Origin: Patescibacteria group bacterium UBA4664
GTDB lineage: Bacteria; Patescibacteriota; Saccharimonadia; CAILAD01; BJGX01
Assembly (NCBI GenBank): GCA_943354575.1
Contig: CALRCL010000003.1
Coordinates: 1-39,207 of the forward strand
Reading direction: 5' to 3'
DNA: 39,207 nt
The notes below the pieces were generated by a model, which saw only the letters and a list, made by a program, of their open reading frames with translations, was not told where the DNA came from and made no database searches. The stretch's first letter is position 1; every line of letters starts with the position of its first letter. Position numbers and translations under genes: made by a program. Shown here in pieces: positions 10,835 through 12,970 of the stretch.

Positions 10835-11881
10835 TTAGATCTTTTTTTTTGAGCCGTTGTGTTGGACTTCGCTAGCCTTGGTCTCTGGAGCTTTAGTTTT
10901 TGGAGTATCTTCTGGAGCCTTATTATCTGCAGTACCAATTGCTGACTCGGTTTCGGCAGCTATTTGAGCCTGCTTGATAGCCTCTTTAATGCTAGTTGCA
11001 GCGGTCGCATCCGGAGCTACAGCCTCGATATTGGGCTCTTTAGCAGCAGTTGGAGGCTGAGGGTTGGCGGTTATTGGGTTCGGTTTGTTGTATGGCGCAG
11101 GAGATGATGTAGGCTTGGGAGTATTATTAGATTGCAAAACCCTTACAATCTCTTGCTGTTTGGCGCCAGCTGCTAGCATCTGGGCGGCAACCGTCATAGA
11201 CTTGGCGGTTGTATCTGGGGTAGTAAAGTTGTGGGTGGCAGTAGTAATACCAGTATATAATGCTGTGGCGATCGATTCATCGACCATTCCCTGCTCTAGG
11301 GACTCAAATAGCGATACTAGCATTTCGCAGACTGAGCTAGAGTTTTGATCGATATAATTGACACTACCGTACTCTTCGTTGATGCGATGATAATCGATAT
11401 TAATAAGGTGAAGGCCGTCGAATATAGTTGGGTTTTTTTCGACAATTTTATCGAGTTTTATAATCTGTGGTACGCCTAGCGCAATAACTAAATCGAACTT
11501 AAATGGACCTTGCTCAAAGCTAACATCGCCGGCCTTAAAGTTGCCATTGAGGGGTGTAATCGTGACATCTAGCCTGTCGCCTTCGACATTGTATTTGAGC
11601 TTATCAACCACTACGGAATGCATTGCAACGCTAATTATAAAGTCGCGCACACCCTGGATGTCGTTACTGATAAATTGGGTATCGAAAAGCTCGGCGCTCT
11701 TGGGTAGTGCGTCGGTAATAACAATACTGGCCTGCTTTTGGAGCTTATTTAGTGCTCGCTGGGTAGCGATTGCAGCCGCAAGCTGATCGTTGCTTGGCTC
11801 TCGCCCTGTAACAATCACGATATTGTGAGCTTGCTTAATGAGCTCGCTGGCTTGCTGTTTTGGGGTTAAATCATTTTGCAT
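10835..11881 (-). CDS. DHH-family-like phosphoesterase homologue with degenerate motifs; possible -1 frameshift extension to 10743
   Basis: INIDYHRINEEYGSVNYID and later GITTATHNF resemble NrnA-like DHH motifs; Pro/Ala-rich C-terminus ending at a 9-A tract. Confidence 0.7.
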   Translation of the reverse strand: MQNDLTPKQQASELIKQAHNIVIVTGREPSNDQLAAAIATQRALNKLQKQASIVITDALPKSAELFDTQFISNDIQGVRDFIISVAMHSVVVDKLKYNVEGDRLDVTITPLNGNFKAGDVSFEQGPFKFDLVIALGVPQIIKLDKIVEKNPTIFDGLHLINIDYHRINEEYGSVNYIDQNSSSVCEMLVSLFESLEQGMVDESIATALYTGITTATHNFTTPDTTAKSMTVAAQMLAAGAKQQEIVRVLQSNNTPKPTSSPAPYNKPNPITANPQPPTAAKEPNIEAVAPDATAATSIKEAIKQAQIAAETESAIGTADNKAPEDTPKTKAPETKASEVQHNGSKKKI

Positions 11882-11928
11882 AATATTTGCGTAGTTATAA
11901 TTATTGTTATCTTCTTAAACAATGGGTT

Positions 11929-11957
11929 ATTATACACGACATAAGCGTTATTGTCAA
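11929..11957 (-). promoter_or_regulatory. Consensus sigma70-type promoter TTGACA-N17-TATAAT
   Basis: Both hexamers perfect with 17-nt spacer, upstream of the DHH-like gene start (11881). Confidence 0.85.
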
Positions 11958-11958
11958 G

Positions 11959-12230
11959 GTATAAGAGCCTTCAAGCTCGGTGGGGCTACCCCCGCTATAC
12001 TTTCCGCCACAGATCGCTAGTAAATTAGTGAGCTCTGGTGGTCGCCCCAGGGTGGATTCCTGGGGCGTTATTGTTTGGTGACGGCCAGACTTCTCTAGCC
12101 TCACGGAGCTTCCCCGTGATATTGCGGGCGGTTGTTTTACAAGAGTGCCATACTCTTGCCGTTCGAGAGAAGCTTGGGCTGTCGGTCGGGCAGTACCGAC
12201 TGTATGGTACTGGGCTAGCACCCCACATCC
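11959..12230 (-). ncRNA. Candidate structured RNA of unassigned class
   Basis: At least six potential helices by eye: 12212-12206/12197-12191; 12172-12166/12096-12090 enclosing 12158-12152/12146-12140 and 12119-12114/12106-12101; 9-bp 12067-12059/12051-12043; closing GTATA/TATAC (12000-11996/11963-11959) around two small hairpins. GC-rich against an AT-leaning background. Strand is inferred. Confidence 0.55.
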
Positions 12231-12398
12231 TCAATTCTCTCTTCGGAGTCGATGCAAACCATACGCATAGGCAATTGTGATGGTGCCCGCAATTGCTGCT
12301 ACCGCAAACTTAGTCTTGTATGGTGCACTGACCAGCAAGACGTATCCCATGGTGATTATGCAGATCCAAGTCGCCACCTCTAGCAGTCGGAGCTTCAT
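12231..12398 (-). CDS. Small membrane protein, 55 aa
   Basis: MKLRLLEVATWICIITMGYVLLVSAPYKTKFAVAAIAGTITIAYAYGLHRLRREN; GGAG before ATG at 12398; two hydrophobic stretches. Confidence 0.6.
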   Translation of the reverse strand: MKLRLLEVATWICIITMGYVLLVSAPYKTKFAVAAIAGTITIAYAYGLHRLRREN

Positions 12399-12434
12399 TT
12401 TTTCTCCTTTGATGCAAGGTATATTTGCCTCAAA

Positions 12435-12443
12435 ATTATAACA
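12435..12443 (-). promoter_or_regulatory. Extended -10 (TGT TATAAT) upstream of the 55-aa ORF
   Basis: TG-N-TATAAT on the minus strand about 37 nt upstream of the start. Confidence 0.5.
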
Positions 12444-12493
12444 TAACCTCAAAATGGTACTTAACAAGTGCGCCTCAATCGTGGCAAATACCC

Positions 12494-12522
12494 TTTACAG
12501 ATGAGGCATTATCAGGTATACT
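12494..12522 (+). promoter_or_regulatory. rpsT promoter TTTACA-N17-TATACT
   Basis: Hexamers with 17-nt spacer upstream of rpsT. Confidence 0.7.
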
Positions 12523-12580
12523 TATGCCTATCACTATTTATTAAGTAATTTACTCTTTAAAAAGAAGGATTAATCGTTAT

Positions 12581-12970
12581 ATGCCAGTAATCAAATCAGC
12601 TATCAAGAGAGTCCGCCAAGAAAAAAAGCGCAAAGCTTATAATATTGGTGTAAAGACATCTGTAAAAGCCAAGTTTAAAGCTGTTCGCGACGAAGTTGCA
12701 ACTGGCAAAGTCAAGAGCAACGAAGAGCTAGTTGCTGCTATTAAAGCTATCGACCAAGCTGTACGCAAGGGCGTTATCAACAAACACAGCGCCGGCCGCA
12801 AAAAGAGCCGCCTAACACTTGCCTACAACTCAGTAGCCGAAAAGGCTTTTGGAACCGAGCCTGCCAGCAAGCCTAAGGCTAAAAAAGCTGCCGTCATCAA
12901 GAAACCAGCTGCAAAAAAAGCTGCTACCATCAAAAAGACAGCTACCAAAAAAGCTGCTCCAAAAAAATAG
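12581..12970 (+). CDS. rpsT: 30S ribosomal protein S20 with Lys/Ala-rich C-terminal tail
   Basis: MPVIKSAIKRVRQEKKRKAYNIGVKTSVKAKFKAVRDEV...; tail AKKAAVIKKPAAKKAATIKKTATKKAAPKK. Confidence 0.93.
   Translation: MPVIKSAIKRVRQEKKRKAYNIGVKTSVKAKFKAVRDEVATGKVKSNEELVAAIKAIDQAVRKGVINKHSAGRKKSRLTLAYNSVAEKAFGTEPASKPKAKKAAVIKKPAAKKAATIKKTATKKAAPKK

Follow-up and report, generated by a model that had tools for sequence, protein, structure and literature searches.

Comparative sequence evidence for a pseudoknotted RNA family borne 3' of small genes in Patescibacteria and uncultured viral contigs

The DNA analysed, hereafter called the window, is a stretch of 39,207 nucleotides (CALRCL010000003.1, positions 1 to 39,207) representing contig C3 of the 0.6-Mb genome of the Saccharimonadia bacterium UBA4664. 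A structured RNA and a 55-aa ORF are located there between a DHH-family gene (10835-11881, minus strand) and rpsT (12581-12970, plus strand); RNase J and PNPase are also encoded in the window. The spacer contains the following features around the conserved RNA.

11929-11957, minus strand: promoter of the DHH-family gene, 12/12 consensus match, conserved in G002 and roughly in G003
12003-12041, no strand assigned: imperfect palindrome CCACC..GGTGG, also in G002; host intergenic sequence outside the RNA
12043-12067, minus strand: 9-bp perfect hairpin CGCCCCAGG/CCTGGGGCG, directly 3' of the conserved RNA, with no T-run following on this strand
12165-12171 with 12235-12241: 7-bp helix GAGAGAA/TTCTCTC, its outer arm overlapping the end of the 55-aa ORF; outside the conserved RNA as defined
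12191-12212, minus strand: 7-bp hairpin CAGTACC/GGTACTG upstream of the conserved RNA, seen in the window sequence and fold
12234-12398, minus strand: 55-aa ORF with an AAAGGAG Shine-Dalgarno sequence and two hydrophobic stretches, read from the sequence
12435-12443, minus strand: probable extended -10 element TGTTATAAT for the unit of 55-aa ORF and RNA, read from the sequence; the same sequence is kept in G002

The DHH gene has its own promoter, independent of the RNA, and TGTTATAAT is the probable promoter element predicted for the 55-aa ORF and RNA unit. In the congener G003 the DHH-rpsT spacer is about 220 bp long and has no insert, and in the congener G002, which has similar flanks, the spacer contains an acetyltransferase-like gene instead; such a gene is present in this spacer in G008 and G010 as well. 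Since the spacer is empty in one congener and holds another gene in the other, the flanks being alike, the 55-aa ORF and the RNA most likely form an acquired insert, at about 12041-12430, without counterpart in these two relatives. The structured region was described at the outset as GC-rich, and its GC content is indeed about 55% vs 32-48% across most of the flanks. The interval then drawn around it, 11959-12398, was too wide: the structured RNA is real, but only 12158-12073 on the minus strand is conserved, and the tail of the interval, 11959-12041, is largely host sequence, because 11959-11985 and the palindrome at 12003-12041 are shared with G002, which has no RNA. The mismatches of the palindrome are kept at the same positions in G002, and it is possibly a protein-binding site or an old repeat. 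The leaders of the acetyltransferase-like genes of G002 (L005:1780-2725), G008 (L039) and G010 (L038) encode a short peptide, the end of which is conserved (..ALAYRMI / ..SLAYRIN), and a hairpin with a T-run comes next, an arrangement resembling ribosome-mediated attenuation.

All of the helices listed in the preliminary description (a 9-bp perfect hairpin, two 7-bp hairpins and a 7-bp helix) were found in the sequence. The region 11955-12250 on the minus strand folds at -116.6 kcal/mol vs a shuffled mean of -91.3 (z -5.1; 0/200 shuffles as good). The plus strand also folds above chance (z -4.2), so that single-sequence folding cannot choose the strand. The 7-bp helix 12165-12171/12235-12241, proposed to close a multibranch loop, is present in the sequence; a downstream helix that closes a multibranch loop in the window fold was not found conserved. 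Signatures of tmRNA, RNase P, SRP or riboswitches had been reported absent; in agreement with this, the window contains no Rfam match at the gathering threshold and no ARAGORN match, and nothing credible was found at E<=10 in 11880-12580. Weak matches to rteR, preQ1-II and snoR17 scored far under the gathering score, that to preQ1-II covering merely the Shine-Dalgarno sequence and ATG of the 55-aa ORF. Two likenesses, of the tail to a cobalamin-like GCNACUG and of GUAA...GGGGAA to 16S helix 45, were dropped, no model having matched.

In a BLAST search of the order, the RNA part matched an 83-nt stretch of G014, 70% identical, with compensatory stem changes (AGAG/CUCU to CGAG/CUCG and CACGG/CCGUG to CCAGG/CCUGG). 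A covariance model of these two sequences (R2) recovered copies in G007 (E 1.5e-8) and in G010 (E 4e-6), the latter located in the DHH-rpsT spacer, as in the window. A degenerate core pattern that did not demand pairing matched five IMG/VR contigs, and 5/5 of these score with R2 and form a 6-bp P2 helix. Further patterns raised the curated set to 17 sequences; curation dropped pattern matches without P2, among them L063, L065, L069-L071 and L077-L080, which were taken as chance along with most of one later scan. The conservation of GUAAU, GGGGAAG, CC and GC in the viral set is partly imposed by the search patterns. The 17-sequence model (R3), which covers a 47-nt core, matched 13 of 393 genomes of the class at E<=0.01, with ten places at or below 7e-8 and the best Saccharimonadia copies down to E 1e-12, and identified four further Patescibacteria among 381 genomes of the phylum. 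In all, about 35 homologues were gathered, from 13 Saccharimonadia genomes, four other Patescibacteria and 13 uncultured viral contigs. Carriers are few (about 3% of the class) and usually have a single copy. The family has no match in Rfam 15, and BLASTN searches of phage and plasmid records gave no convincing match to the element.

Sequence comparison thus shows 12158-12073 on the minus strand to be a copy of an RNA family that is not in Rfam 15. The family consensus comprises, in order, an H-type pseudoknot, GUAAU, a 6-bp P2 helix with the 7-nt loop GGRAGYW, a P3 helix of 3-5 bp and a tail like GUCACUG. In the window these parts are as follows, from 5' to 3' on the RNA.

12140-12158, minus strand: P1 hairpin CAAGAGU-AUGGC-ACUCUUG (DNA CAAGAGT/ACTCTTG), the loop bases GGC (12149-12147) being the 5' strand of the pseudoknot
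12126-12139, minus strand: A-rich linker UAAAACAACCGCCC, in which GCC (12129-12127) supplies the pseudoknot's 3' strand; the window copy has only 3 bp here
12120-12125, minus strand: conserved single strand GCAAUA (family GUAAUW), from the homologue alignment
12101-12119, minus strand: P2 stem UCACGG/CCGUGA with the 7-nt loop GGAAGCU (family GGRAGYW), paired in all 17 sequences (100%), both sides having changed in four pairs
12083-12100, minus strand: P3 hairpin GGCUAG-AGAAGU-CUGGCC, its closing pair switching between G-C and C-G across the family
12073-12082, minus strand: conserved tail GUCACCAAAC (family GYMACYG), from the homologue alignment

Several homologues have an intrinsic terminator at the place taken here by the 9-bp hairpin (12043-12067), which lies outside the conserved RNA as the homologues define it.

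The covariation expected of a structured RNA was found and is strong. P2 is paired in 100% of the cells of the 17-sequence alignment, with four variable, covarying pairs, a figure to be read with the curation in mind, which discarded matches without P2; the five unselected viral matches and the later genome matches are the cleaner evidence. Two-sided changes occur in 43 cells vs a shuffled mean of 15.8, pairing reaches 96.4% vs 71.9% in shuffles and the score is 0.69 vs 0.19, while sliding one arm by 1-3 columns lowers pairing to 32-50%. The closing pair of P3 alternates between G-C and C-G in the 17 sequences, and RNAalifold recovers the same two helices. On the minus strand P2 tolerates G-U pairs without A-C mismatches. 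The homologues therefore decide the strand on comparative grounds: the RNA is assigned to the minus strand, where G-U pairs keep P2 100% paired.

Upstream of GUAAU, nearly all of the inspected copies have the hairpin P1, often followed by an A-rich linker (UUAAA, UAAAA), and in many of them the bases of the P1 loop can pair with the last bases of the linker. Examples of such loop/linker pairs are GUCA/UGAC (G007), UUGGA/UCCAA (L059), GACGA/UCGUC (L133), CUUA/UAAG (L128) and CCCA/UGGG (G411), and the complementarity is clearest in copies found by the core alone (CCACG/CGUGG in L155, GGAGU/ACUUC in L153 and GUAUC/GAUAU in L154). When linkers are swapped among copies, mean pairing is 3.2 for a loop with its own linker vs 2.5 for permuted ones (p about 1e-4), and the joint hairpin-pseudoknot score is 16.5 vs a mean of 4.1 and a best value of 7.3 in dinucleotide shuffles of the 45 upstream bases. 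On this comparative evidence the P1 loop and the end of the A-rich linker form an H-type pseudoknot. In about one third of the copies the linker is short or absent, or no clear pseudoknot is seen. In the window copy P1 is strong (7 bp), but the second helix is only GGC/GCC; with GCAAU in place of GUAAU and a pseudoknot of no more than 3 bp, this copy may be weakened.

These results bear on the simplest alternative, namely that there is no family, and that the region is either a spacer that happens to be GC-rich and dense in hairpins or a cryptic coding region (ORF 11907-12221). The tendency of GC-rich DNA to fold on both strands and the presence of an open 104-codon frame would agree with it. 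However, covarying homologues occur in many independent genomes, and covariation, the genome-wide matches of the core model and the pseudoknot shuffles all contradict this view, which is scarcely credible. The coding variant was ruled out by the indels and covariation: no conserved coding signal was found across 11907-12234, changes follow helices rather than codons, the best-conserved stretch is interrupted by a 5-nt gap in the G014 homologue, and linkers differ in length between copies by any number of bases, so that the indels are not multiples of three.

The element does not code for protein, and in most cases a same-strand ORF ends a short way 5' of it, with the stop codon usually 10-140 nt before GUAAU. 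The suggestion that the RNA accompanies a small ORF is upheld by its recurrence 3' of a small ORF in most of the homologues, but does not extend to the 55-aa protein itself. This protein has no Pfam domain and only a weak PHROG match (E 0.004), PHROG matches of neighbouring proteins being weak as well, and tblastn gave no homologue among 16 other genomes of the order. The upstream ORFs are diverse and differ from one homologue to the next. Both of these facts argue that the 55-aa ORF is not a conserved or fixed partner of the RNA, contrary to the linkage first considered. Copies occupy intergenic sites that vary between close relatives, and the family is borne 3' of small cargo ORFs in sporadic, apparently mobile clusters of Patescibacteria and in uncultured viral contigs.

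An intrinsic-terminator-like hairpin comes directly after the element in L059, L134, L136, L137, L139 and L140 and next after the last G411 copy, and the ribosome-binding site of the next gene lies downstream in L062, L067 and L112, within about 10-20 nt of the tail, and in G007. Together with the high conservation of unpaired bases, such neighbours would suit a riboswitch-like sensor of a ligand or protein, in which the pseudoknot, GUAAU and GGRAGYW loop formed an aptamer and the downstream terminator or Shine-Dalgarno sequence an expression platform. Against this, the element tracks the upstream rather than the downstream ORF: the terminator behind the element of G336, like that closing the G411 array, has no close cargo gene beyond it. 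The downstream genes share no function, and one viral copy simply stands in series with twisters. A sensor of this kind appears unlikely.

The G411 array consists of four nearly identical copies, each after a different small ORF, and an apparent degenerate fifth. The degenerate copy (L152:3420-3470) keeps P1, the linker and GUAAUUAAUCGUCAC, while P2 and P3 are gone, suggesting that the P2-P3 part can be lost as a unit. An array of different ORFs, each followed by nearly the same element, and the occurrence of copies at variable intergenic sites recall the attC sites of integrons, so that an ORF and its 3' element might move as a gene cassette through single-stranded DNA hairpins. However, the leader around each gene of the array is likewise repeated, many copies of the element are single, and three helices with a pseudoknot are unlike attC. 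A DNA-level recombination site is also made unlikely by the tolerance of G-U without A-C mismatches in P2, which points to RNA, and the probability of such a site is judged very low.

Self-cleaving ribozymes are found in the same gaps between genes. Downstream of the element and within 200 nt of it, a hammerhead is present in G014, G138 and G111, and in G111 a second hammerhead is located 578 nt upstream. In L092 a twister, a separate neighbour, precedes the element by 21 nt, and the viral contig of L076 shows the order ORF-element-twister-ORF-twister-ORF and on, with five or six twisters. A hammerhead or twister lies within 200 nt of the element in five replicons, a positional association of the RAGATH type. 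Because hammerhead-like matches number just 0-4 per genome (20 genomes searched), a hammerhead less than 200 nt away in three element-bearing genomes is far above random placement; both RNAs may prefer the same mobile islands. The window copy has no hammerhead core (CUGAUGA...GAAA) within 1.5 kb, RF00008 has no match in G000, and the twister models match neither in G000 nor in the window.

Several further arrangements were observed in these surroundings. Hammerhead type III-like ribozymes, mostly just under the Rfam cut-off (G014:C12:50687, G138:C3:262502, G007:C3:20980, G111:C15:27569 and others), are common in the class, with matches in 11/20 genomes tested at E<=1. The rpsT to DHH gene region of G007:C3 (L040:535-2320) contains a small ORF resembling the pre-element ORF of G014, a hammerhead, a tmRNA-like gene, an ORF of lipoprotein type and a tRNA-like sequence; G014, too, has a tmRNA, located after its element and hammerhead. 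In L135 (G111:C15:67373-68125) two same-core hammerheads about 713 nt apart flank a small ORF and the element, an arrangement in which a circular or excised RNA is conceivable. A viral contig (L064:216-420 and 1020-1065) carries tandem 105-bp units, each composed of the element and a tRNA-like fold with acceptor and T arms and no clear D arm; similar folds occur elsewhere in this contig and in L058 (12045-12090). In contig IMGVR_UViG_3300021092_000047 (L076, 19180-22782) twisters occupy most gaps between small co-directional ORFs.

As the element stands in series with twisters and beside hammerheads, a role in mRNA processing would be the most economical reading. It would act on the RNA level as intercistronic or 3'-UTR punctuation, setting the mRNA end or separating cistrons, as is presumed of the hammerhead and twister ribozymes in the same gaps. 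In the window, transcription would begin near 12430, run through the 55-aa ORF and stop in or after the RNA, before reaching the DHH gene with its separate promoter. Taken whole, a new RNA family providing RNA-level punctuation of mobile small-gene operons is the best explanation offered here, and we regard it as having an even chance of being right.

The likeliest chemistry of such punctuation would be self-cleavage, although this step alone is held only tentatively. Its fullest form, a new class of small self-cleaving ribozymes with an H-type pseudoknot core, interchangeable with twister and hammerhead in Patescibacteria and viruses and cutting polycistronic RNA between small cargo genes, is possible but somewhat doubtful. 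The element matches no known ribozyme fold and no site of cleavage can be pointed out, the clustering with ribozymes could stem from a shared mobile, phage-like environment rather than shared function, and many copies precede a terminator, where cleavage would change the upstream mRNA little. A location near transcript ends or cistron borders, an H-type pseudoknot with an A-rich third strand, and the RNase J and PNPase genes of the window would also fit an end-protector or protein-binding 3'-UTR element, in which the pseudoknot would stop a 5'-3' exonuclease (RNase J) or be bound by a phage or host protein and so stabilise transcripts with ends made by neighbouring ribozymes. However, no ring-like exonuclease-resistant fold was recognised and no conserved protein partner occurs near the copies, and protection of this type is considered improbable. 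The copies and their surroundings show that ribozymes and RNA modules missing from the annotation occur in small Patescibacteria genomes, at hot spots between core genes, and the purpose of self-cleaving RNAs between the genes of phages and mobile operons becomes a cheaply testable question. No paper joining Patescibacteria or Saccharibacteria with ribozymes or structured RNA was found in the open-access literature searched.

Among known systems, the RAGATH motifs (Weinberg et al. 2015) are RNAs named for their association with genes that are themselves associated with twister and hammerhead ribozymes. They resemble the element in being orphan structured RNAs beside self-cleaving ribozymes and phage-type genes, whereas the element matches no Rfam 15 family, the RAGATH families there included. 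Not all published RAGATH motifs are in Rfam, so that the element could equal a published motif outside it. With the hammerhead (RF00008) and twister-P1 (RF03160) ribozymes it shares intercistronic gaps in five replicons, but it contains neither the CUGAUGA/GAAA core nor the twister core and is matched by neither model. The analogy with OLE RNA and OapA drawn at the outset, from a structured RNA adjoining a small membrane-protein ORF, could not be sustained: OLE RNA is about 600 nt long (PMC12054373), whereas the element is conserved over 12158-12073, no OLE model or other Rfam family matches, and the 55-aa protein is not conserved with the RNA. Theta ribozymes, HDV-like RNAs of gut phages that were found with an HDV-like descriptor and sorted by tRNAs within 5 nt (PMC10879173), are likewise phage-borne, and the viral copies in L058 and L064 stand beside tRNA-like sequences; most copies of the element, however, have no tRNA, and no HDV-like connectivity was seen. 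The pistol ribozyme shares a P1 hairpin loop engaged in a pseudoknot, an A-rich strand after P1 and a phage context, but in pistol this loop is paired to the P2-P3 junction (PMC6154101), whereas in the element, which has no Rfam match, it pairs with the P1-P2 linker directly before GUAAU. Ribozymes are enriched near other ribozymes and Mu-like phage genes, and it was ribozyme-associated gene context that led to pistol, hatchet and twister-sister (PMC10085705). A covarying, pseudoknotted family in the gaps of twister and hammerhead operons presents that same pattern.
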